NCBI GenBank assembly: GCA_026705295.1
Contig: JAPPBA010000120.1
Location: 1-44,393 of the forward strand
Direction: 5' to 3'
Length of the DNA stretch: 44,393 bases
Source: Candidatus Palauibacter australiensis
Lineage (GTDB): Bacteria > Gemmatimonadota > Gemmatimonadetes > Palauibacterales > Palauibacteraceae
Position numbers and translations under genes: made by a program. Of the stretch, positions 1,175 to 17,942 are shown piece after piece. A model generated the notes under the pieces. It made no database searches, had not been told where the DNA came from, and worked only from the letters and a program-made list of their open reading frames with translations. The first letter of the stretch is position 1; each line of letters starts with the position of its first letter.

Positions 1175-2247
1175 CGGACGGGCCCGAAGCCGCGCCGCAC
1201 ATCGGGACCCACGGTCTCGACTGGCTGGATGAGGAAGGGCCCGACGGCGACATCGTCGTCTCGAGTCGCGTACGCCTCGCCCGCAACCTCCAGGGATATT
1301 CGTTCTCGGCCCACGCGACCGGAGAAGAGCGCGAAGCCCTGCTCGAGAAGGCGCGGGCGGCGACGGAGGCCGCGGGCGTGCTCGAAGAGGTCGATTTCTG
1401 GGAGATATCGCGCCTCGGCCCGATGGACCGCCTCCTCCTGCTCGAGCGGCGCCTCGTGAGCAAGGAACTCATCGGGAAACCCGAAACTGGACCGCGTCGC
1501 GGCTCGGGCCTCGTCCTGTCCCGGACGCGGGCCCTCGGGATGATGGTGAACGAGGAAGATCACCTCCGGCTGCAGACGCTGCGCGGGGGCTTCCAGCTCG
1601 CGGCCGCGTGGCGCGACCTCGATCAGCTCGACGAGGAGATTGGCGCCCGCCTTCCGTACGCCTTCCACCAGGAGTTCGGCTTCCTCACCTCCTGTCCGAC
1701 CAACGTGGGGACCGGGCTGCGGGCCTCCGTCTTCATCCATCTGCCCGGTCTCGTCCTCACCCGTCAGATCCGCAAGGTGCTCGAGGGGATGGGGCAACTC
1801 GGCGTGACCTATCGGGGTCTATACGGAGAGGGTTCGAGGATCGTGGGAAACCTGTTCCAGATCTCGAACCAGACGACCCTGGGCAAGACCGAGGAGGACC
1901 TGATCGACCAGCTTGAGCGCCTGGTCGGCCGCGTCATCGGATACGAGAAGCAGGCGCGGGCTGTCCTGCTGCGCGAGGCGCCGAACGTGCTCGAGGACAA
2001 GGTCTGGCGAGCCTACGGCATCCTGTCTCACGCAAGAAGCCTGCCGTTCGAGGAGATGATGAACCTCCTTTCCGGAGTCCGTCTCGGCATCTCGCTGAAA
2101 CTTCTGAAAACGCCTCGGGTAGATGTGATCAGCCGCATGATGATCCATGCCCAGACCGCCCATCTCGCGCGTGCGGCCGGGCGCCGGCTCGACGAGGCGG
2201 ATGCGGACGCGTTCCGCGCCAGCTACGTTCGAAGAGCCCTTGCGTAG
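1171..2247 (+). CDS. mcsB: Protein-arginine kinase McsB
   Basis: ATP:guanido phosphotransferase-fold kinase that phosphorylates arginines on misfolded proteins, marking them for ClpC-ClpP. The 358-residue product (usual length about 350) begins at GTG 1171, preceded by GGAGG and overlapping the mcsA stop. The frame stays open further upstream, but that part is a shadow of mcsA. Family motifs are SSRVRLARN near residue 30, NEEDH at 127-131 holding the catalytic Glu, and CPTNVGTGLRAS with the catalytic Cys at 175. At the C-terminus, where Firmicutes McsB carries the phospho-arginine-sensing RDxxRA motif, I read A345-D346-A-F-R349-A350. The first Arg is therefore absent, which may weaken allosteric self-activation (inference). 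Function as McsB is secure from motifs and context. Confidence 0.93.
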   Translation: MTDGPEAAPHIGTHGLDWLDEEGPDGDIVVSSRVRLARNLQGYSFSAHATGEEREALLEKARAATEAAGVLEEVDFWEISRLGPMDRLLLLERRLVSKELIGKPETGPRRGSGLVLSRTRALGMMVNEEDHLRLQTLRGGFQLAAAWRDLDQLDEEIGARLPYAFHQEFGFLTSCPTNVGTGLRASVFIHLPGLVLTRQIRKVLEGMGQLGVTYRGLYGEGSRIVGNLFQISNQTTLGKTEEDLIDQLERLVGRVIGYEKQARAVLLREAPNVLEDKVWRAYGILSHARSLPFEEMMNLLSGVRLGISLKLLKTPRVDVISRMMIHAQTAHLARAAGRRLDEADADAFRASYVRRALA

Positions 2248-2314
2248 CGCGGGATCGTACTAGTGTACACCAGTTACGCCGTCGGCCCCTGCGTCGACGC
2301 CCCATGAGGCGCGG
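2248..2314 (+). promoter_or_regulatory. mcsB-clpC intergenic gap with possible operator-like palindrome
   Basis: This 67-base gap is the only non-coding interval of note in the mcsA-mcsB-clpC-bamA run. It contains GTACTAGTGTAC at about 2257-2268, with an ACTAGT palindrome inside. I see no CtsR direct repeat (GGTCAAA-type) and no CIRCE inverted repeat (TTAGCACTC-N9-GAGTGCTAA), the usual heat-shock operators for clpC. A weak TTGCGT at 2240 lies in a poor position for a promoter. Whether transcription starts here is open. Confidence 0.2.
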
Positions 2315-4804
2315 ATGAACTACAATTTCACGGATCGTGTTCGAAAGGTGCTCGCCATGGCGCGCGAGGAGGCCATCCGCCTCAAACACGATTACGTGGG
2401 AACGGAACACATCCTCCTCGGCCTGATCCGCGAAGGGGAGGGCGTCGCCGCCGCGGTTCTGGCCAACCTCTCCGCCGACCTCGACGAGTTGAAGCGGCTC
2501 GTGGAGGGGAACATCCGGACGGGGAAGAGCAGTTCGTCGATTGGCGAACTCCCTTACACGACGCAGGCGAAGAACGTGCTCGAGCACGCGATGGCCGAGA
2601 CGGAGGAGCTCAACCACACCTACGTGGGGACGGAGCACCTGCTGCTCGGTCTCCTCCGCCAGGAGAAGGGGCTCGCGGCCAAGGTGCTCGGAGAAGCCGG
2701 AATCGGGCTCGACGGCGCGCGGGCCGAGACGCTGAAGCTCCTCGGGACGGACATGCCGGCCGGCGGTACGCCCGCCACGGCCTCCGTTTCCGACCCCGCG
2801 AGTTCGTCGGGCAAGAAGGGCGACAAGAAGTCGAAGACCCCGGCGCTCGACCATTTCTGCCGCGATCTCACGCAGCTCGCCAGCCAGGGGAAGCTCGATC
2901 CGACGATCGGACGGCTGGGCGAGATCGAGCGCATGATGGAGGTCCTCTCGCGCCGCAAGAAGAACAACCCCGTGCTCATCGGCGAGCCGGGCGTGGGCAA
3001 GACGGCGATCGTCGAGGGGCTTGCCCAGGCCATCCAGCGGGGCGACGTGCCGGACAGCCTGAAGCGGCACCGCGTCCTGGCGCTCGACATGGCGGCGGTC
3101 ATCGCCGGCACCAAGTACCGGGGTCAGTTCGAGGAACGCCTCAAGGCGATCGTCAACGAGACCTCGCAGGCGAAAGGCGTCATCCTCTTCATCGACGAGC
3201 TGCACACCCTCGTCGGGGCGGGGGCGGCGGAAGGCGCGATCGACGCGTCGAACATGCTCAAGCCGGCGCTCTCCCGGGGGGAGCTGCAGTGCGTGGGCGC
3301 CTCCACCCTGAACGAGTACCGGAAGTACATCGAGAAGGACGGGGCGCTGGAACGCCGCTTCCAGACCGTGATCGTCGAAGCTCCGACCATCGACGAGACC
3401 GTGGAGATCCTTCAGGGTCTCCGGAAGTACTACGAAGACCACCACAACGTGGAGATCCCGGATGCGTCGCTTTCCGCCGCCGCCCGGCTGGCGGAGCGCT
3501 ACATCACGGACCGCTTTCTCCCGGACAAGGCCATCGACGTGATCGATGAGGCGGGCGCGAGGTCGAGGCTCGCCGCTCAGGTGCCGCCCGCCGAGGTGCA
3601 GGAGTTCCACGCGAAGCTCGAGGAACTCGCGGAGTGGAAGGACGCCGCGATCAGCGACCAGGACTTCGAGCGCGCCGCCTACCTGCGGGATCGGGAGAAG
3701 GAGGTTCAGGAGGAGATCAAGCGCCGGCGCGACGAATGGGAGCGCGCCCGGGCCGAGTTCCGCCCCACGGTCGACGAGGACGATATCGCCTTCATCGTGG
3801 GCCGCTGGACGGGGATTCCCGTGACCCGGCTGCGGGAGGCGGAAACGGACCGCCTGCTCCGCATGGAGGACGAACTACACGAGAGCGTCGTCGGACAGGA
3901 CGAGGCCATCGAGGCGGTAAGTCGCGCCATCCGCCGCGGGCGGGCGGGACTGAAGGACCCCGACCGGCCCATCGGGAGCTTCATCTTCTGCGGTCCGACG
4001 GGAGTGGGAAAGACGGAGCTGGCGCGGGCGCTGGCGCGCTTCCTGTTCGCGGAGGAGAGCGCGCTCGTGCGCGTGGACATGTCGGAGTACATGGAGAAGT
4101 TCTCCGTGAGCCGTCTCATCGGCGCGCCGCCGGGCTACGTGGGCTACGAGGACTCCGGCGCGCTCACGAAGGCCATCCGGCGGCGGCCGTACAGCGTCGT
4201 CCTGCTCGACGAGATCGAGAAGGCGCATCCCGACGTCTTCAACATCCTCCTCCAGGTCCTCGACGAGGGCCGGCTCACGGACAACTACGGCCGGGTCATC
4301 GACTTCAAGAACACCGTCGTCATCATGACGTCGAACGTCGGGAGCCGGGACATCGGCAGCTCGACCCGCGTGGGGTTCACGGAGGAGTCGAGCGGGATCG
4401 ACTACGACCGGATCCGGGAACGGGTGTCGGACGAGATCGACCGCGTGTTCACGCCCGAGTTCCTGAACCGGGTCGAGGAGACGATCGTCTTCCACCCGCT
4501 GTCGAAGGAGCAGCTGGGAGAGATCGTGCACATCCAGCTCAGGGAGGTGCAGAAGCGCCTCGCGGAGGAGAGGCTGGAACTCGAGCTGACCGATGCGGCG
4601 ATCCGTTTCCTGGTGGACCGCGGCTACGACGAGAAGTTCGGGGCGCGCCCGCTCAAGCGGACGATTCAGCGGCACGTCGAGGATGCGCTCTCCGAGCGGA
4701 TTTTGATGGCCGATTTCGAGCCCGGCGACCGGATCCGGGTGGACATCGCCGACGACGAGGACAGCCTGGTGTTCGCCACGCCCACGACGTCCTCGGCGAC
4801 ATGA
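2315..4804 (+). CDS. clpC: ATP-dependent Clp protease ATP-binding subunit ClpC
   Basis: Hsp100 unfoldase that recognises phospho-arginine-tagged substrates and feeds them to ClpP. The 829 residues show the double Clp-N repeat (residues 1-145) with YVGTEH in both halves. Glu31 and Glu107 align with the glutamates that bind phospho-arginine in Bacillus ClpC. Next come AAA domain 1 (Walker A GEPGVGKT near 223, Walker B ILFIDELH), a middle domain with a UVR motif ([16 protein letters not shown]), and AAA domain 2 (Walker [10 protein letters not shown] near 560, Walker [12 protein letters not shown]) with a ClpB-type C-terminal domain. The UVR-bearing middle domain separates ClpC from ClpA and ClpB. 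The ATG at 2315 has GAGG upstream. The stop overlaps the bamA ATG. No ClpP gene is present in the window. Confidence 0.96.
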
Positions 4805-10284: not shown

Positions 10285-11135
10285 CCTCGGCGGGCTACGC
10301 TCCGGGGCGCCACGCGACGGCGGTCGTCGATCCGTCGGCGAGCATCGCCTCCAGTGCCACCGTGGGCCCTTACACCGTGATCGGCCCGGACGTGGAGGTC
10401 GGCGAACGGGTACGGATCGGCCCGCACGTGCTCATCGAACGGGATACGCGCGTGGCCGAGGATGTGCGGATCGCCAAGGGCGCCGTCCTCGGTTCGGACC
10501 CGCAGGACCTCAAGTATGCGGGGGAGCGCACCTTCCTGGAGATTGGAGCCCGCACCGTCGTGCGCGAATTCACCACGCTGAACCGGGGGACGGCCGCAAG
10601 CGGCCTGACTTCGGTCGGGGCGGACGCGCTCGTGATGGCCTACGTGCACATCGCCCACGACTGCCTCATCGGCGATCATGTCGTGCTCGCGAACGGCGTG
10701 ACCATGGGAGGACACGTCGAGATCGGGGACTGGGGGATCGTCGGCGGGCTGACGGGTATCCACCAGTTCACGCGCATCGGCCGGCACGCGATGGTCGGAG
10801 GAGGCGCGCGCGTGTCGCGGGATGTCGCACCATACACCCTCGTCGGGGGGGGGCGGACCCGCACGTACGGCGTCAACCGCATCGGCCTCGAACGCCGGGG
10901 ATTCGACCCGGACGCGATCCGCGCCCTCCAGGCTGCCTACCGGACGATCTTCCGGTCGGGTGAACCGCTCCGGACGAGTCTCGAGCGCGTCCGGCGGGCA
11001 GACATGTCCCCCGAGGTGCGGGAACTCGTGGAGTTCATCCACGATTCCGCGCGCGGCGTGACCCCCACGCGCGTCGGCCCGGACGACGACCTGCCGCCGG
11101 AGCCGCGCGAGGCGAAGCCCCGGTCCGCCGTGTGA
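10281..11135 (+). CDS. lpxA: UDP-N-acetylglucosamine O-acyltransferase LpxA
   Basis: First step of lipid A synthesis: 3-O-acylation of UDP-GlcNAc. The 284 residues begin at GTG 10281, overlapping the fabZ stop, and form a hexapeptide-repeat beta-helix (about 12-190) with a helical C-terminal domain. Diagnostic segments are GSDPQDLKYAGE near residue 71, VREFTTLNRGT near 94, and YVHIAHDCLIGDHV near 121 with the catalytic His at 126. NRIGLERRGF marks the start of the C-terminal domain. If the neighbouring Gfo/Idh/MocA enzyme is GnnA-like, LpxA here might accept a 3-amino sugar nucleotide, but nothing in this sequence alone decides O- against N-acylation. Confidence 0.95.
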   Translation: MTSAGYAPGRHATAVVDPSASIASSATVGPYTVIGPDVEVGERVRIGPHVLIERDTRVAEDVRIAKGAVLGSDPQDLKYAGERTFLEIGARTVVREFTTLNRGTAASGLTSVGADALVMAYVHIAHDCLIGDHVVLANGVTMGGHVEIGDWGIVGGLTGIHQFTRIGRHAMVGGGARVSRDVAPYTLVGGGRTRTYGVNRIGLERRGFDPDAIRALQAAYRTIFRSGEPLRTSLERVRRADMSPEVRELVEFIHDSARGVTPTRVGPDDDLPPEPREAKPRSAV

Positions 11136-12106
11136 GCCGGATCCCGGCCGGCGTCGTCGGGGTCGGGAAGCTGGGCGCCGAGCACGCCCGGCTCCTGGCG
11201 CAGAGCGACGCGTTCGAGTTGGAGGGGGTCCACGACCGGTCGGCCGCACGGACGAAGGAGGTCGCGGACGCGCTGTCCGTGCCAGCCTTCGCGGAGGCGG
11301 AGGCGCTGCTCGACCGGGTCGAAGCCGTCGTCATCGCGGTGCCCACCGGGGCACACCACGAGGCTGCGACCGCCGCGCTGCGGGCGGGTTGCCACGCGCT
11401 GGTCGAGAAACCGCTCGCCTCAAGCCTCGACGAAGCGGACGGCATCCTCGCGCTCGCGGAGGAGGAGGGTGTCGTTCTCGGAGTCGGACACGTCGAGCGC
11501 TTCAACGGCGTCCTCCTGGCCGCGGATCCATGGCTCGATCGGCCGCGCTTCATCGAGTCGCTGCGCATGGCGCCGTTTCAGGCCCGCGGGGCGGACACGA
11601 CGGTGATTCTGGATCTCATGATCCACGACATCGACCTCGTCCTCACGCTGACGGAAGCGCCGCTGGTGGACGTGCGCGCTGTGGGCGTGCCCGTCATTTC
11701 CCCCCGGATCGACCTCGCCAACGCGCGCCTTTCCTTCGAGGACGGCACCGTGGCGAACATCACCGCGAGCCGCGTGGCGCTGAAGGCGCTGCGAAAGCTG
11801 CGGTTGTTCCAGGGCTCCGGGTACTTCAGCTTGGACTTGGCGGCCGAGACGGGACATCACTACCGGCGGCGCGATCCAGGGGCCGGGACCGCGATCACGG
11901 GAGTGGAGGCCATGGTGGAGCATATCCCGCTGGAGGCTGGCGGCGGCGAGGCCCTCGCCCGCGAACTCGGGGCCTTCGCCGACGCGATCGCCGGACGTCC
12001 GAGCCGCCTGGTATCGGGTCGCGCGGGCAGGGAAGCGCTGGAAGTCGCGATCCGGATCACCCACGAAATCGAGGAGTTCGTACATGTCGTTGCTCAAGAT
12101 TCGTGA
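11132..12106 (+). CDS. Gfo/Idh/MocA-family oxidoreductase in the lipid A cluster
   Basis: NAD(P)-dependent sugar(-nucleotide) dehydrogenase of 324 residues. The N-terminal Rossmann fold begins GVVGVGKLGAEHARLL. The family lysine is in HALVEKPLASSLDEA (around residue 98). A C-terminal alpha/beta substrate domain includes MIHDIDLVL, with the conserved His-Asp pair. It sits between lpxA and the lpxB region, overlapping lpxA as GTGA. In Acidithiobacillus and Leptospira, GnnA of the same family oxidises UDP-GlcNAc at C3 and the neighbouring aminotransferase GnnB makes UDP-GlcNAc3N for N-linked lipid A. No GnnB-like gene is here, so the exact reaction is unknown. Many lpx clusters carry such a gene without gnnB. 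The family call is firm; substrate is inference. Confidence 0.85.
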   Translation: MSRIPAGVVGVGKLGAEHARLLAQSDAFELEGVHDRSAARTKEVADALSVPAFAEAEALLDRVEAVVIAVPTGAHHEAATAALRAGCHALVEKPLASSLDEADGILALAEEEGVVLGVGHVERFNGVLLAADPWLDRPRFIESLRMAPFQARGADTTVILDLMIHDIDLVLTLTEAPLVDVRAVGVPVISPRIDLANARLSFEDGTVANITASRVALKALRKLRLFQGSGYFSLDLAAETGHHYRRRDPGAGTAITGVEAMVEHIPLEAGGGEALARELGAFADAIAGRPSRLVSGRAGREALEVAIRITHEIEEFVHVVAQDS

Positions 12107-12218: not shown

Positions 12219-13381
12219 CCCCACGTCCAGGGCCGGCGCTCTTCATCTCCGCCGGCGAAGCGTCGGGGGACCGCCACGGCGCGGCGGTGGCGCGCGAGAT
12301 CCGGCGTAAGCTGCCCGAGGCGAGGCTATTCGGGATCGGCGGCCGCGAGATGGACGCGGCCGGCGTGTCGACCATCGCCGGCCTGGACGAGTTGTCGGTC
12401 ATGGGGGGAACGGAGGTGCTGCGGCGCCTGCCGGGCTTCCTTCGACTGGAGCGCCGGATCCGGCGGCTTTTCGCGACGGAGGATGTCCGGCTGTTTCTTC
12501 CGATCGATTACCCGGGGCTGAACCTGCGGCTTGCCCGCGCCGCGCGGCGGCAGGGGCGGCGGGTCCTCTACTACATCGCGCCTCAGGTGTGGGCCTGGCG
12601 GGAGGGCCGGGCCCGGAAGCTCCGGCGCGACTGCGACCGCGTACTCACCGTGCTCCCGTTCGAAGCGGCGCTGCTCGAGGGGTACGGCGTGCGCGCAACG
12701 TTCGTCGGGCACCCTCTCCTCGACGAGACGCGCGCTCCCGAAGGCGGCGCCGGGGTCGGCGCGGCCGCGGGGCGGGGCCCATCCGGTGCGGGGAGAGTGG
12801 TTGGACTCTTCCCGGGATCGCGCGCGCAGGAGGTCCGGCACATGCTGCCGGTCTTCGCGGAGGCCGCGCGGCAACTCGCGCGCTCGCATCGGGACCTCGA
12901 CTTCATCATCGCGCGCCCCCCGCATCTACCGGAGTTGCTGTACGCGGAAGCGGGATTCCCGACCGCGGGAGCGCGCGAGGTGACCGAGCGGTCCTGGGCG
13001 GCCCTCACGAAGTCCGGCACGATCACGCTCGAACTCGCGCTCGCGGGCGTGCCGATGGTCGTGGGCTACCGCATGAGCCGGGTGGAGTGGGCCATCGGCC
13101 GCCGGCTGGTCCGCGTCCCGTCCATCGTGCTCGTCAACCTCGTGGCAGAGGCTCCGGTCGTCCCGGAGTTCCTGCAGGACCGGCTGACGGCCGATGGCGC
13201 GGCGGCGGCCGTCGAAGCGCTCCTGGCCGAGGAAGCGCCGGCTCGGCGCAAGATGCTGCACGGCTTCGACGTCGTTCGCGAGCGGCTCGGGAAGCCGGGG
13301 TGCGCGGCCCGGGTCGCGGGACACGCGGTCGGCCTCCTGGCGGGCCCCGAGTCCGCGCACGGGCCCGGCGCGCCGTGCTGA
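12215..13381 (+). CDS. lpxB: Lipid-A-disaccharide synthase LpxB (probable CTG start)
   Basis: Glycosyltransferase (GT19) that joins UDP-diacylglucosamine and lipid X into the lipid A disaccharide. The conserved N-terminal motif SAGEASGDRHGA is encoded at about 12251-12286, upstream of the first in-frame GTG (12287), so that GTG cannot be the start. Between the previous in-frame stop (12104-12106) and this motif I find no in-frame ATG, GTG or TTG. The CTG at 12215 overlaps the preceding TGA as CTGA, with GGGG four bases upstream. It gives 388 residues, the usual LpxB length. Other motifs are FGIGGREMDAAG, LPIDYPGLNLRLA, YYIAPQVWAWREGR, FVGHPLLDE and LFPGSRAQEV. LpxB identity is secure; the CTG start is inference. 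Confidence 0.92.
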   Translation: MTPRPGPALFISAGEASGDRHGAAVAREIRRKLPEARLFGIGGREMDAAGVSTIAGLDELSVMGGTEVLRRLPGFLRLERRIRRLFATEDVRLFLPIDYPGLNLRLARAARRQGRRVLYYIAPQVWAWREGRARKLRRDCDRVLTVLPFEAALLEGYGVRATFVGHPLLDETRAPEGGAGVGAAAGRGPSGAGRVVGLFPGSRAQEVRHMLPVFAEAARQLARSHRDLDFIIARPPHLPELLYAEAGFPTAGAREVTERSWAALTKSGTITLELALAGVPMVVGYRMSRVEWAIGRRLVRVPSIVLVNLVAEAPVVPEFLQDRLTADGAAAAVEALLAEEAPARRKMLHGFDVVRERLGKPGCAARVAGHAVGLLAGPESAHGPGAPC

Positions 13382-15138
13382 GCGCGCGCCGCATCCCGCT
13401 GGGCGTCGCCGTCCGGCTCGTGCGGGTCGCCCTCCCCATCAGCCGGACGTGGCGCTTTCGGCATCCCGATGATCCCGGCCGGCCGTATCGGCCTCTGCTG
13501 AAGCATGAGGTCCACGCGTGCTGGCACGAACACCTCCTCCCACTCACATGCCTCTTCGCGGGCCAAGCACTCGCGACGCTCGCAAGCCGCGACCGCGATG
13601 GCGAGATCATCTCGCGCGTTCTCCGACGCCTCGGCTATGGCGTGGCCCGGGGCTCGAGCACGCGTGGTGGCTCGGCGGGGTTCCGCCAGTTGGCCCGCCA
13701 CTTCACGGCGGGACGCGGCGTGATTCTCACGGGGGACGGGCCGCGCGGCCCCCGACGGTCGCTGAAGGAAGGCGCGTCGCGCATCGCGTCCGTGACGCAC
13801 AGCGCCGTGAGCGTGGTGGGCGTCGCGGCTTCCTCGGGCCTGCGGCTTCGGAGCTGGGATCGCTTCCTCATCCCGGCCCCCGGGGCGACCGTGTTCGTGT
13901 CGCTCGCTCCGGTCGTCGAAAAGGGCACTCCGGGCACCGGAGACATACAGGCCGCGCTCCGGCGCGAAGTGGCGCGCTGTGAGCAGGCGGCGCGCGAGGC
14001 CCGCTGGGCCCGTCCGCCGGGAGTCCTGCGCAGTGGACGTGGACGGGGGGGCGCGACGGGCGCATCGCCGGGCCGCGGGCGAGAGACTCCGGCGATGCGC
14101 GCGCTCGAACTCCGCCTCCGGGGCCAGTGGCGCCGGAGGCGCCCGGCGCCCGCGCTCGGAGCGCTGGCCCGCGTGTACGGCGGCATCCACGCAGGCCGGC
14201 ACGGACTCTACGACTACGGCTTCCTCCTCACGCGCTCCGCCGGCATCCCCGTGATATCGGTCGGCGGCGTCACCGTCGGGGGCAGCGGCAAGACGCCGCT
14301 CTCCGCGCTGATTGCCCGTGCCCTTCGGGAGGCCGGACACCGCCCGGCCATCCTCGCGAGGGGATACGCCGACGAGCTCGATCTGCTCGCGCACGAGGCG
14401 CCAGGGGCGTCGATCCGGGGCCACCCGGACCGGCTCCGGTCGGGGCGGCGGGCGGCGGCGGAGGGGGCGACGGTGGCCATCGTCGACGATGGCTTTCAGC
14501 ATCGGCGCCTCTTCCGCGACCTGGACCTCCTCGTCCTCGACCGGGACGCCCTTCGCCGCACGAACGGGGCACGACTCCCTGCCGGTCCGTTTCGCGAGCG
14601 CTGGGAGCGTGCCGTCGCCCGTGCGGACGCGATCCTCTGCACGGGACGGGAGCCATGGACGGTCGAGCTGTCCCGCTTCGACGGCGAACTCCGGGGCCGG
14701 CTCGGGAGTCTGGCCCCCGGCGTCCCCGTGGCGACGGCGGCCTTCGGGCACGGGCCCCTCGAGGCGGCCAACGCGGGAGCGCGCGGCTGGTCCGGATCGC
14801 CGGCGCCCCGTCTCGCCTTGACCGGGATCATGAAGCCCAATCTCTTCTTCGCGCAGGCCGGCGCCGTGTGCGCGTCGGTACGGGAGCGACTCGCGCTGAG
14901 CGATCACGGGATGCCGTCGGCGCGGGAGCGGATGGCCGCGATCCGCGCGGCGGGGCGGGGCGGCGTGCTCACCACGCGCAAGGATCTCTCCCGGCTCCGC
15001 CCGCTCTTCGACGCGGACCTGCCGATCTGGGTGCTCCCCGAGACTCTCACATGGAAGGCCGGCTGGGAAGACGTGAGACGGCTGATTCTCGATACGGCAT
15101 CGGGCCGGAAAGACCGTGATCCGGCGGCCGAGGGGTGA
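13375..15138 (+). CDS. lpxK: Fusion: DUF374 lysophospholipid-acyltransferase-like domain + tetraacyldisaccharide 4'-kinase LpxK
   Basis: One uninterrupted frame of 587 residues, from a GTG at 13375 that overlaps the end of lpxB by seven bases. Residues ~20-225 form a DUF374 acyltransferase-like domain: HACWHEHLLPL, SRDRDGEIISRVLRRLGYGV, RGSSTRGG, LTGDGPRGPRRSLKEGA, RLRSWDRFLIP. A basic linker follows. Residues ~241-587 are LpxK, which phosphorylates the lipid A disaccharide: GLYDYGFLLTRSAGIP, ISVGGVTVGGSGKTP (P-loop), ARGYADE, VDDGFQHRRLFRDLDLLVLD, ALTGIMKPNLFF. An in-frame ATG at 14095 lies where a separate lpxK would begin, so an internal start could also give free LpxK. DUF374 genes often neighbour lpxK or waaA, so the fusion joins related functions. 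The stop overlaps rlmH as GTGA. Confidence 0.85.
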   Translation: MLSARRIPLGVAVRLVRVALPISRTWRFRHPDDPGRPYRPLLKHEVHACWHEHLLPLTCLFAGQALATLASRDRDGEIISRVLRRLGYGVARGSSTRGGSAGFRQLARHFTAGRGVILTGDGPRGPRRSLKEGASRIASVTHSAVSVVGVAASSGLRLRSWDRFLIPAPGATVFVSLAPVVEKGTPGTGDIQAALRREVARCEQAAREARWARPPGVLRSGRGRGGATGASPGRGRETPAMRALELRLRGQWRRRRPAPALGALARVYGGIHAGRHGLYDYGFLLTRSAGIPVISVGGVTVGGSGKTPLSALIARALREAGHRPAILARGYADELDLLAHEAPGASIRGHPDRLRSGRRAAAEGATVAIVDDGFQHRRLFRDLDLLVLDRDALRRTNGARLPAGPFRERWERAVARADAILCTGREPWTVELSRFDGELRGRLGSLAPGVPVATAAFGHGPLEAANAGARGWSGSPAPRLALTGIMKPNLFFAQAGAVCASVRERLALSDHGMPSARERMAAIRAAGRGGVLTTRKDLSRLRPLFDADLPIWVLPETLTWKAGWEDVRRLILDTASGRKDRDPAAEG

Positions 15139-15611
15139 CGCGGATCCTCGTGGCCTCGGTCGGACGGAACCGGGCGACCCCTCTTCGAAGGGCGACGGCG
15201 GAGTACGAGGACCGCCTGCGGCGGTACATCCGGTTCGACACCGTGGTCGTCGGCCCGGCGCGACTCCCCGATGCCCGCGCCGTGGAGGCGCAGGAGCGGG
15301 AGGCGGCGGCCCTCGAGCGCCGACTCCCGGCCGACCTGGACCTCATCGCGCTCACGCGCGAGGGCGAGCGCTGGACCACGCGGGCCCTCGCGGACTACCT
15401 GGACGATATGCGCACGTACGGACGCCCCGGAGCCGCGTTCGCGATCGGCGGGGCGCACGGGCTGGCCCCACGCCTGCTTGCCCGCGCGCGGGCGCGACTC
15501 GCGCTCTCGGCCATGACGCTTCCGCACGAGATCGCCCGACTCGTCCTCACGGAGCAACTTTACCGGGCGGCCACGATCCTCCGTGGCGAGCCCTACCACA
15601 AGGGTCCCTGA
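15135..15611 (+). CDS. rlmH: 23S rRNA (pseudouridine1915-N3)-methyltransferase RlmH
   Basis: SPOUT-family methyltransferase that modifies helix 69 of 23S rRNA on the assembled 70S ribosome. The 158-residue product matches RlmH length (about 155). It has the SPOUT knot region (FAIGGAHGLAPRLLARA, LALSAMTLPHEIARLVLTEQLYRA) and the conserved C-terminal tail (ATILRGEPYHKGP, where most members end in PYHR/K). The N-terminal MTRILVASVGRNR and YEDRLRRY also fit. The start is GTG 15135, overlapping the lpxK stop. Only eight bases separate its stop from the next gene. Confidence 0.95.
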   Translation: MTRILVASVGRNRATPLRRATAEYEDRLRRYIRFDTVVVGPARLPDARAVEAQEREAAALERRLPADLDLIALTREGERWTTRALADYLDDMRTYGRPGAAFAIGGAHGLAPRLLARARARLALSAMTLPHEIARLVLTEQLYRAATILRGEPYHKGP

Positions 15612-15618
15612 GGGAACC

Positions 15619-16371
15619 GTGAGCGCCCCGACGAGCGCCCCCGCCGAGTGGTTCCGGGAATGGTTCGGCCGAGCCTACCTCGAGCTGTATCCGCATCGGG
15701 ATGAGGAGGAGGCCGCCCGGGCGGTCGCGCTCTACCGGGAGCGCGCCGGGCTCGCGGCGGGCGACCGCGTCCTCGACCTCGCCTGCGGCGCGGGACGGCA
15801 CCTGCAGCGCCTCCGCGCGGCCGGCCTGCGGGCGATCGGGATCGACCTCTCGGCCCCGCTCCTCGATGCGGCTCGCACGCGCCCCGGCGTGGACGGATCC
15901 CTCGTCCGCGCGGACATGCGCGGGCTCCCGTTCGCCGCCGGGACGTTCGACGGTCTCGTGAACTTCTTCACCTCCTTCGGCTACTTTCTCACGCCGGAGG
16001 AGGACGTGGAGGTCCTGCGGGAAATCCGGCGCGTGCTGCGGCCCGGCGCCCCTTTCCTGATGGACTACCTGCACGCGGCGTGGGTCATCGACCGCCTCGA
16101 CCCCGAGTCCGTGGGCGAGATCAACGGAACTCCCGTGAGGCAGACGCGGTGGGTGGAGGGAGACCAGGTCTTCAAGCGAATCGAGATCGGCGGCGGCGCG
16201 GACCGCGAACCGGAAGTCTATCACGAGCGGGTACGCCTCTATTCCCCGGAGGCGCTGCGCACGCTCCTCCGCGAGCAGGGGCTCGAGGCGACGAACGCTT
16301 TCGGTGCATACGACGGGACGCCGTTCCGGGGCGACTCGGCCCGCCTCCTCCTGCTGGGACGGACGCTTTGA
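15619..16371 (+). CDS. Class I SAM-dependent methyltransferase
   Basis: Rossmann-fold methyltransferase of 250 residues with motif I VLDLACGAGRHLQRL, the acidic motif II end GIDLSAPLL, motif III VRADMRGLPFAAGTFDGLVNFF and post-motif IRRVLRPGAPFLMDYL. The C-terminal half (QTRWVEGDQVFKRIEI, ERVRLYSPEALRTLLREQGL) is typical of small-molecule methyltransferases annotated as Methyltransf_25/11. I chose the GTG at 15619 because GAGGGA lies just upstream. The longer in-frame GTG at 15583 would overlap rlmH by 29 bases. The stop overlaps the bshC TTG as TTGA, so the two are probably coupled. A substrate cannot be read from the sequence; a role with bacillithiol is conceivable but only positional. Confidence 0.85.
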   Translation: MSAPTSAPAEWFREWFGRAYLELYPHRDEEEAARAVALYRERAGLAAGDRVLDLACGAGRHLQRLRAAGLRAIGIDLSAPLLDAARTRPGVDGSLVRADMRGLPFAAGTFDGLVNFFTSFGYFLTPEEDVEVLREIRRVLRPGAPFLMDYLHAAWVIDRLDPESVGEINGTPVRQTRWVEGDQVFKRIEIGGGADREPEVYHERVRLYSPEALRTLLREQGLEATNAFGAYDGTPFRGDSARLLLLGRTL

Positions 16372-17942
16372 GTTCGCCGCAGAACCCGGAACTCATCTCG
16401 CGCCCGCTGGGCGTCCCAGGCTCCATCGCCCGCGCCGTATTGGACGCCGCCGGCCCGGGCCTCCTTCCGCTCGCCGGCCGTCTTTCCGCGACCCACGCCC
16501 CGCCCCCACGCCCCGCCCGGATCGGACCCGACGCCTTCGGCGTTTCCGGCCCCGGGGTCCGCGACCGCCTCGAGTCCGTCCTCCGGGGGCAGGGGACCTT
16601 CGTCACGACGGGGCACCAGCCCGTCCTCCTCCTCGGACCCCTCTACGTCCTCTACAAGGTCCTCACCGCTATCTCGCTCGCCTCCCGCCTCGAGCGGACG
16701 CTCGGTGCGCCCGTCATCCCTCTCTTCTGGATCGCCTCGGATGACCACGACTGGGACGAGGTGGGAAGCGCGACGATCCTCGACCGCTCCGACGCGCCGC
16801 AGACGCTCGCCCTCCCGGTCCCCCCCGGGGGTGATCGCCGATCCGTGGGATCCCACGTTTTGGACGATTCCTGGATGGATGTCCTCGACGCCCTGCCCGA
16901 AATCCTTCCTGAATCGGAGTTTACGTCACACTACCTCGAGCTCGTGCGAGCTGCCTACGCGGAGGGCCAGCCGGTGTCCGCGGCTTTCGCCCGGTTCCTC
17001 GCGGGTGTGCTCGGCGATCGGGGGTACGCCTGGCTCGATTCGGCGCGGCCGGAGGTCCGGCGCGCCGCGGCCCCCTTCTACCGCCGGCTTCTATCGGACT
17101 GGGACGGGGTCCTCGAGGCCGAGGCGGAGGGTGCGGGCGCGCTGCGGGCGTCGGGCTTCGAGGCCCCGATCTCGCGGGTCGATGATGCGCTGCCGCTGTT
17201 CTTCGACGAGGGCGGCGGGCGACACCGCGTCCGGCGCGACGGAACGGCAGCGCCGCAAACCTGGGCCGCGCGGCTGGACGCCGCGCCCGAGGCCTTCTCG
17301 CCGAACGTCGCGTCGCGCCCCGCGCTCGAATCCTACCTCCTTCCCGTAGCCGCGACCGTGCTCGGACCCGGGGAGATCGCGTACTGGAGTCAGCTGGGGC
17401 CGCTGTTCGAGGCCCTCCGCGTCCCCCTGCCGTCCGTCCATCCCCGCGCGGCGTGGACGCTGCTCGAGGCGCGCACGCGACGGGTTCTCGAGCGCACGGG
17501 ACTTTCGTCGCAGGATCTCGCCGGGGGGACCGAGCCCGCCGTCGAGCGCCTCACGCGGGAGTCGCGGCCGGAAAGGGTCGAGCGGGCGCTGCGCCGTTTC
17601 CGGGAGGGCGCCGAGGCCGGCATGGCCGCGATCGAGGCGGCCGTGGCCGAAGACGTGCCGGGACTGCGGGGGGCGGCGGGGAAGATGCGGAAGGGCATCC
17701 TCGACGCGGCCTCCGAGCTGTCCCGCCAGGTGGACCGCGCGACCCGGGAACGGCTCGACGTCCGGCTGGGCCAGGTGCGGCGTGCGGGGGCGAACCTCTT
17801 CCCGCGGCGGCGCCCACAGGAACGCGTGCTGAACCCGCTCTCCTTCCTCTGCCGCTACGGGCCCGGACTCGTGGAGCGGTTGGCCCGCGAAACCGACCGC
17901 CAGGTCGCGTCCTTCTTGGCGGGTCGCGCGGAAGATGGATAG
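16368..17942 (+). CDS. bshC: Bacillithiol biosynthesis cysteine-adding enzyme BshC
   Basis: BshC adds cysteine to glucosaminyl-malate in the last step of bacillithiol synthesis. The 524-residue length fits the family (about 540). Recognisable blocks are TTGHQPVLLLGPLYVLYKVLTAISLA (the HIGH-like nucleotidyl-transferase-fold region, near residue 80), PVIPLFWIASDDHDWDEV, SPNVASRPALESYLLPVAATVLGPGEIAYWSQL near residue 310 and a C-terminal coiled-coil. It ends LNPLSFLCRYGPGLVERL, as BshC proteins do. The start is a TTG at 16368 overlapping the methyltransferase stop. The frame stays open far upstream but only as a shadow. bshA and bshB are not in the window. Bacillithiol is known outside Firmicutes, for example in Deinococcus and Bacteroidetes. 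Confidence 0.92.
   Translation: MSSPQNPELISRPLGVPGSIARAVLDAAGPGLLPLAGRLSATHAPPPRPARIGPDAFGVSGPGVRDRLESVLRGQGTFVTTGHQPVLLLGPLYVLYKVLTAISLASRLERTLGAPVIPLFWIASDDHDWDEVGSATILDRSDAPQTLALPVPPGGDRRSVGSHVLDDSWMDVLDALPEILPESEFTSHYLELVRAAYAEGQPVSAAFARFLAGVLGDRGYAWLDSARPEVRRAAAPFYRRLLSDWDGVLEAEAEGAGALRASGFEAPISRVDDALPLFFDEGGGRHRVRRDGTAAPQTWAARLDAAPEAFSPNVASRPALESYLLPVAATVLGPGEIAYWSQLGPLFEALRVPLPSVHPRAAWTLLEARTRRVLERTGLSSQDLAGGTEPAVERLTRESRPERVERALRRFREGAEAGMAAIEAAVAEDVPGLRGAAGKMRKGILDAASELSRQVDRATRERLDVRLGQVRRAGANLFPRRRPQERVLNPLSFLCRYGPGLVERLARETDRQVASFLAGRAEDG

Follow-up and report, generated by a model that had tools for sequence, protein, structure and literature searches.

Does a single gene of Candidatus Palauibacter australiensis carry two enzymes of lipid A synthesis in one polypeptide and, if it does, what could their union mean for the pathway? 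The question is raised by contig JAPPBA010000120.1 (assembly GCA_026705295.1), of which we analysed positions 1 to 44,393, hereafter called the window. An original prediction, made from the letters of the window, had placed at 13375-15138 an in-frame fusion of a DUF374 acyltransferase domain to the kinase LpxK, read as 587 residues with no stop between the two. This description holds: the stretch is a single open frame of 587 codons on the + strand, from a GTG start at 13375 to a TGA at 15136-15138, with no internal stop, and its translation contains the quoted motifs of both families (RGSSTRGG, LTGDGPRGPRR, GGVTVGGSGKTP and VDDGFQH). Pfam recognises DUF374 (PF04028) at residues 62-127 with 75.5 bits against a cut-off of 26.8, and a complete LpxK (PF02606) in two stretches with 172 bits against a cut-off of 27; the NCBIfam model for lpxK, TIGR00682, gives 97.2 bits (cut-off 91.95). 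The accompanying hope that such a protein could disclose the function of DUF374 has been overtaken by published work, since LpxJ, whose activity as lipid A 3'-secondary acyltransferase has been shown in Helicobacter, Campylobacter, Wolinella and Rickettsia, already belongs to the family (PMC6148475, PMC6286764). The fusion is a true conserved gene joining two known enzyme families, and is laid out as follows (dN/dS is the ratio of nonsynonymous to synonymous substitution rates):

13375-15138, + strand: lpxJ-lpxK fusion gene, 587 aa, GTG start; in all 17 genomes of the genus examined, the frame runs through both halves without a stop
13375-14016, + strand: DUF374/LpxJ-type acyltransferase domain, residues 1-214 (Pfam core 62-127), assigned by Pfam and by a predicted model matching the PatA, LpxM and PlsC folds
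14017-14094, + strand: Arg/Gly-rich linker of variable length, residues 215-240, for the most part modelled as disordered, dN/dS 0.75
14095-15135, + strand: LpxK domain, residues 241-587, with helices ahead of the kinase core, assigned by Pfam, NCBIfam and fold match

How far does this arrangement extend? We searched 40 relatives, 16 of which belong to the same genus of marine Gemmatimonadota (Candidatus Palauibacter included), making 17 genomes with that of the window; each of these 17 encodes the two halves in a single frame uninterrupted by a stop. Loci L016-L019 share 54, 49, 44 and 41% identity with the window's protein, and the sole TGA in the match of genome G004 sits at the end of the kinase match, which is the end of the frame. 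Pairwise comparison of 12 close genomes gives a dN/dS of 0.17 in the DUF374 core, 0.29 in the C-terminal part of DUF374, 0.75 in the linker, 0.40 in the N-terminal part of LpxK and 0.25 in the LpxK core; the low values in both cores point to two enzymes under purifying selection, with a loose linker between them. The LpxK and DUF374 matches of the window's own genome (95.5% complete) are found only in the fusion gene, a profile search of that genome having returned no second match to either family. The closest matches in public assemblies come from Candidatus Palauibacter and other Gemmatimonadota metagenome-assembled genomes (MAGs); the order Palauibacterales is described in PMC10469786, in the main text of which the terms “lipopolysaccharide”, “LPS”, “lipid A” and “LpxK” do not occur.

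The kinase half can be followed down to single residues. The key residues given for Aquifex aeolicus LpxK in PMC6286764 are K51, T52, D99, E100, D138, D139 and H261, and in the alignment to 4ehw/4ehx they correspond to K306, T307, D333, E334, D371 and D372 of the fusion as far as the first six are concerned. The K, T, DE, DD and DH residues are invariant, E. coli LpxK included, and we infer from the DH motif common with the E. coli enzyme that H511 is probably the match of H261. The model of this half superposes on A. aeolicus LpxK (4ehy) with a Z score of 28.9 and a root-mean-square deviation (rmsd) of 2.2 over 275 residues. Modelled as a whole, the chain shows two domains predicted with confidence, joined by a low-confidence stretch at residues 214-238 (predicted local distance difference test, pLDDT, below 50), with helices at 239-250 and 259-280 ahead of the kinase core; since the model's predicted template modelling score (pTM) is 0.65, the domains are not fixed relative to each other. 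The nucleotide-binding motifs are located at:

14263-14298, + strand: LpxK Walker A, GGVTVGGSGKTP (K306 and T307, invariant in two LpxK alignments)
14485-14502, + strand: LpxK Walker B, DDGFQH (D371 and D372, invariant in two LpxK alignments)

The joining of these two families, both of which act late in building lipid A, the anchor of the outer membrane, suggests that acylation and 4'-phosphorylation may be carried out together, a coupling that the original prediction had proposed and that is plausible. The reading we prefer, with a probability of roughly 75%, is that one polypeptide combines an LpxJ-type acyltransferase, a flexible linker and the LpxK 4'-kinase in a bifunctional protein that originated once by stop loss; one chain would be made, and both its activities would work. 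Several points weigh against this reading. The single product of the fusion and its two activities are predictions from sequence and modelled structure, the relative placement of the two domains in the whole-chain model is uncertain, and the residue correspondence with R. typhi LpxJ was set by motif and spacing. To these must be added the linker, fast-evolving in the genomes that have it and reduced to about 5 residues in five genomes, and the internal ATG of the window genome, or the GTG of eight others, which could also yield a free LpxK.

What would a bifunctional LpxJ-LpxK do? One has to consider the substrates of its two halves. As described in PMC6286764, LpxK phosphorylates substrates of 2 to 6 acyl chains, none of which carries Kdo (3-deoxy-D-manno-oct-2-ulosonic acid), its N-terminal amphipathic helix is likely membrane-binding, and the LpxJ enzymes studied do not require Kdo; lipid IVA is, according to published work, usable as an LpxJ substrate. 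Because LpxK refuses Kdo substrates and the LpxJ enzymes studied have no need of Kdo, the halves could act consecutively before the Kdo transferase WaaA. The LpxK half would phosphorylate the product of LpxB and the LpxJ half would acylate the 3'-linked fatty acid of either lipid IVA or the LpxK substrate with a secondary chain; both steps would take place at the same membrane face, ahead of Kdo addition by WaaA, and the halves may act in sequence, in either order, on one membrane-bound lipid. Tethering would fix a 1:1 ratio and nearness, and may quicken the passing of the lipid from one half to the other. That the fusion occurs naturally and throughout a genus is an argument for LpxJ working beside LpxK, ahead of Kdo transfer, and makes available a single compact protein in which the coupling of two Raetz pathway steps can be tested. 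A bolder proposal, which we regard as possible rather than probable, is that of a substrate-channelling enzyme, in which the 3' secondary chain would be added before Kdo, LpxJ acylating just before or just after LpxK acts, and the fused frame would be kept for the sake of the hand-over. If this were true, LpxJ would be a recurrent tethered partner of its pathway neighbours (LpxK here, WaaA in Fermentibacteria-type genomes) and its step would be placed around lipid IVA. Since the linker is fast-evolving and so short in five genomes, nothing in it looks specific to channelling.

The partnership with WaaA just mentioned was found in 13 loci of Candidatus Sabulitectum, Aegiribacteria and Fermentibacteria (L055, L068, L069, L071, L080, L084, L091, L096, L097, L098, L106, L111 and L113), where the DUF374 frame continues into the Kdo transferase (PF04413) and lpxK is a separate gene downstream. 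Pfam finds both domains in 13/13; twelve of the frames measure 590-629 aa and that of L091 is shorter (391 aa). DUF374 is thus joined to two different neighbouring enzymes of one pathway, and from the differing partner the DUF374-WaaA fusion would appear to be independent of the LpxJ-LpxK one; it indicates the same pathway region from the other side.

The main rival to the preferred reading also has one chain and two activities, with no coupling between them, the stop having been lost by drift in a GC-rich operon and the protein behaving no differently from two unlinked enzymes; we would give this neutral fusion a chance only somewhat short of even. Much about the linker agrees with it, as the sequence between the two domains is variable and fast-evolving, and a stretch of 26 codons drawn at random from the window's composition contains no stop in 68% of trials, so that an open linker in a single genome is weak evidence of fusion. 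Adjacency of the two genes elsewhere also speaks for it: among 61 non-genus loci with both genes, a sample biased by having been picked with a two-half query, 56 have the lpxK start at -120 to +150 bases relative to the stop that ends the DUF374 frame (that frame being DUF374-WaaA in 12 of the 56). What drift explains less readily is that the frame is fused in all 17 genomes, down to 41% identity, while the spacing between the acyltransferase's WDR motif and the kinase's Walker A takes eight values (110, 118, 132, 133, 134, 136, 139 and 143 residues); eight spans with the frame always open imply repeated insertions and deletions in whole codons. The separate fusion of LpxJ to WaaA, an enzyme of a neighbouring step, likewise speaks against a neutral fusion.

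Where did the fusion come from? A 57-row LpxK tree groups all 17 fused proteins in a single clade (support 100/100), set in a family branch that holds four unfused rows (G017, G018, G022 and G329). Both genes are adjacent, in different frames, in five genomes from other genera of the family (G017, G020, G022, G329 and G361); close relatives with separate genes, which the original prediction had named as a point that would count against it, thus occur only outside the genus. LpxK lies near the contig start in G018 and G367, in whose genomes no DUF374 was found, and seven further family genomes (G019, G021, G023, G150, G195, G322 and G390) are uninformative on the fusion as they have neither domain by Pfam. 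Most simply, the fusion would have arisen once, in the ancestor of the genus, through loss of the stop between lpxJ and lpxK, which would already have been neighbours.

The phylogenetic spread, which the original prediction had proposed to check, could be followed over 395 Gemmatimonadota genomes, at least 370 of them with a match: the fusion is present in 17/17 genomes of the genus and, among the matches listed, no stop-free match over both halves was found outside it, the four non-genus matches that cover both halves (G074, G279, G304 and G358) having one TGA each. We also read 37 regions of other Gemmatimonadota, chosen because LpxK sits in a long open frame, because a match covers both halves, or on grounds of kinship. 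The two genes are in different frames in 31, in the same frame with one stop in 5, and in the remaining one (G367) there is no DUF374 on the contig; none is fused. One candidate, locus L026 of G025, with its halves in one frame and open stretches of 572 aa, was rejected as a further fusion on account of a stop between the genes. The view beyond the phylum comes from 80 loci kept of 104: the 10 that belong to the genus are all fused, and of the 70 others, 31 showed both halves, with a DUF374-LpxK fusion in none of these.

An alternative that we consider unlikely is that the N-terminal half is something other than an LpxJ, either an acyltransferase acting on a phospholipid or other lipid, or an inactive membrane anchor for LpxK. 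It can invoke the absence of any NCBIfam match for the DUF374 half on its own, the presence in the genome of another lipid A-type acyltransferase (PF03279), and a structural likeness that is remote and points to several enzymes at once. As whole-chain fold searches were swamped by the LpxK half, we folded the DUF374 half separately, which gave a confident model (pLDDT 86.9, pTM 0.85). Its best matches among solved structures are near-tied: PatA (Z 10.6, rmsd 4.6 over 173 residues), LpxM (9.6, 4.4, 170), a plant GPAT (9.5, 4.4, 184) and PlsC (9.4, 3.6, 167), the next unrelated fold being FtsY at Z 6.5. These are the enzymes with which LpxJ was compared in the Rickettsia paper (PMC6148475), and the half is predicted to fold as a PatA/LpxM/PlsC-like lysophospholipid acyltransferase (LPLAT). 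At the sequence level, a profile of 41 DUF374 domains finds PlsC (E 1e-4), and phmmer of the half against PDB returned a single chance match (E 0.98).

The residues speak for an LpxJ-type half. In Rickettsia typhi LpxJ, W60, H61, D86, D132, W172 and D173 are reported as essential and H84 as dispensable (PMC6148475), and counterparts of all six essential residues are kept in the fusion and throughout an alignment of 79 DUF374 proteins, to which the genus contributes 17, with a single departure:

13522-13527, + strand: W50-H51, counterpart of W60-H61, in 79/79 aligned proteins
13597-13599, + strand: D75, counterpart of D86, in 79/79
13735-13737, + strand: D121 (in DGPRGP), counterpart of D132, in 79/79
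13855-13860, + strand: W161-D162, counterpart of W172-D173, in 79/79 and 78/79, respectively

The H-D-D-D spacing is 24/46/41, against 25/46/41 in R. typhi LpxJ numbering; the position of H84 is variable across the 79 proteins and is D73 in the fusion. The HX4D/E motif is absent at the catalytic His, H51 being followed by E52-H53-L54-L55-P56. The dN/dS of 0.17 in the DUF374 core and the placement of this half between lpxB and lpxK also argue against an anchor or an unrelated acyltransferase.

A further possibility is that the locus has two products, an internal start supplying most of the LpxK and the long chain arising as a by-product, which we find improbable. The internal ATG that the original prediction had offered as a source of free LpxK does exist:

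14095-14097, + strand: internal ATG, with no ATG at the equivalent place in the other 16 genus genomes

Its role as such a source is not borne out by the relatives (0/16 with an ATG there), eight of which have a GTG one codon earlier. Neither the place nor the codon of the start is conserved over the 17 genomes, and no ATG, GTG or TTG, the three start codons scored, occurs 95 to 15 codons before Walker A in L004, L005 and L007; free LpxK from an internal start is therefore unlikely as a general rule. As for a sequencing or assembly error having removed a stop or shifted the frame between the halves, which a single genome built from MAG data could not by itself exclude, its probability is negligible, because the fusion is open in 17/17 genus genomes whose assemblies stem from several projects.

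The fusion lies among other lipid A genes. Those window genes that were tested come in the order Omp85-type gene, lpxD, lpxC, fabZ, lpxA, Gfo/Idh oxidoreductase, lpxB, fusion and rlmH, and both immediate neighbours overlap the fusion:

12287-13381, + strand: lpxB (PF02684, 251.3 bits), its stop overlapping the fusion start
15135-15611, + strand: SPOUT methyltransferase gene, rlmH-type (PF02590), its start overlapping the fusion stop

The oxidoreductase between lpxA and lpxB (11132-12106) has UDP-GlcNAc 3-dehydrogenase as its best NCBIfam likeness, at 157.3 bits, below the cut-off of 450; we take it to be GnnA-like in place and kind, which would fit an amide-linked lipid A. An LpxL/LpxM-type acyltransferase (PF03279) and the Kdo transferase (PF04413) of the same genome are on contigs other than the window's. 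The former, at L134 1274-2212 (contig C177), overlaps a gene at 2209-3594 that reads as an ABC exporter and looks, by eye, MsbA-like. No LpxI was found in this genome, and its one LpxH-like match, on C39, is below the cut-off. Among the seven family genomes with neither LpxK nor DUF374, G021, G150, G195, G322 and G390 are all five members of one genus; LpxC gives at most a partial match in G150 and G023 and none in the other five, although G150 is a single contig of 90% completeness and the identical search finds LpxC in G000, G017 and G022. Lipid A synthesis has possibly been lost in the seven, or the assemblies may have gaps. Elsewhere in the window are an ATP:guanido phosphotransferase domain at 886-2247, presumably McsB-type, and a BshC bacillithiol-synthesis protein at 16080-17942.

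How does the fusion compare with known systems? No LpxJ-LpxK or LpxJ-WaaA fusion is named in the literature titles and abstract openings searched, and either may already be on record; so far as these limited searches show, LpxJ-LpxK is a new domain combination of known enzymes. With LpxJ of Rickettsia and Epsilonproteobacteria, the N-terminal half has in common the Pfam domain, the counterparts of the six essential residues, an LPLAT-like predicted fold and the pathway; LpxJ is a stand-alone protein in published descriptions, whereas here it would be the N-terminal half of a two-domain protein, with a predicted activity. With LpxK of A. aeolicus (4ehy) and E. coli, the C-terminal half shares the fold, the Walker A and B motifs, the DE and DH motifs and the helices ahead of the core, and differs from both in having an N-terminal partner and in being shorter, by about 20 residues, in the interval from RGY to the catalytic DE. 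This shortening is seen in the Gemmatimonadota LpxKs with readable motifs (window 14359-14376; L020-L032 and L114-L133), and the missing residues are present in most readable LpxKs of other phyla. The DUF374-WaaA protein of Fermentibacteria-type genomes likewise has DUF374 N-terminal to a neighbouring lipid A enzyme, with the difference that its partner is the Kdo transferase, lpxK being separate, and not LpxK. Finally, the lpxJ and lpxK of other Gemmatimonadota, Ignavibacteria, Kapabacteria and others follow each other in the same order, close or overlapping, as in the fusion, but have a stop or a different frame between them.

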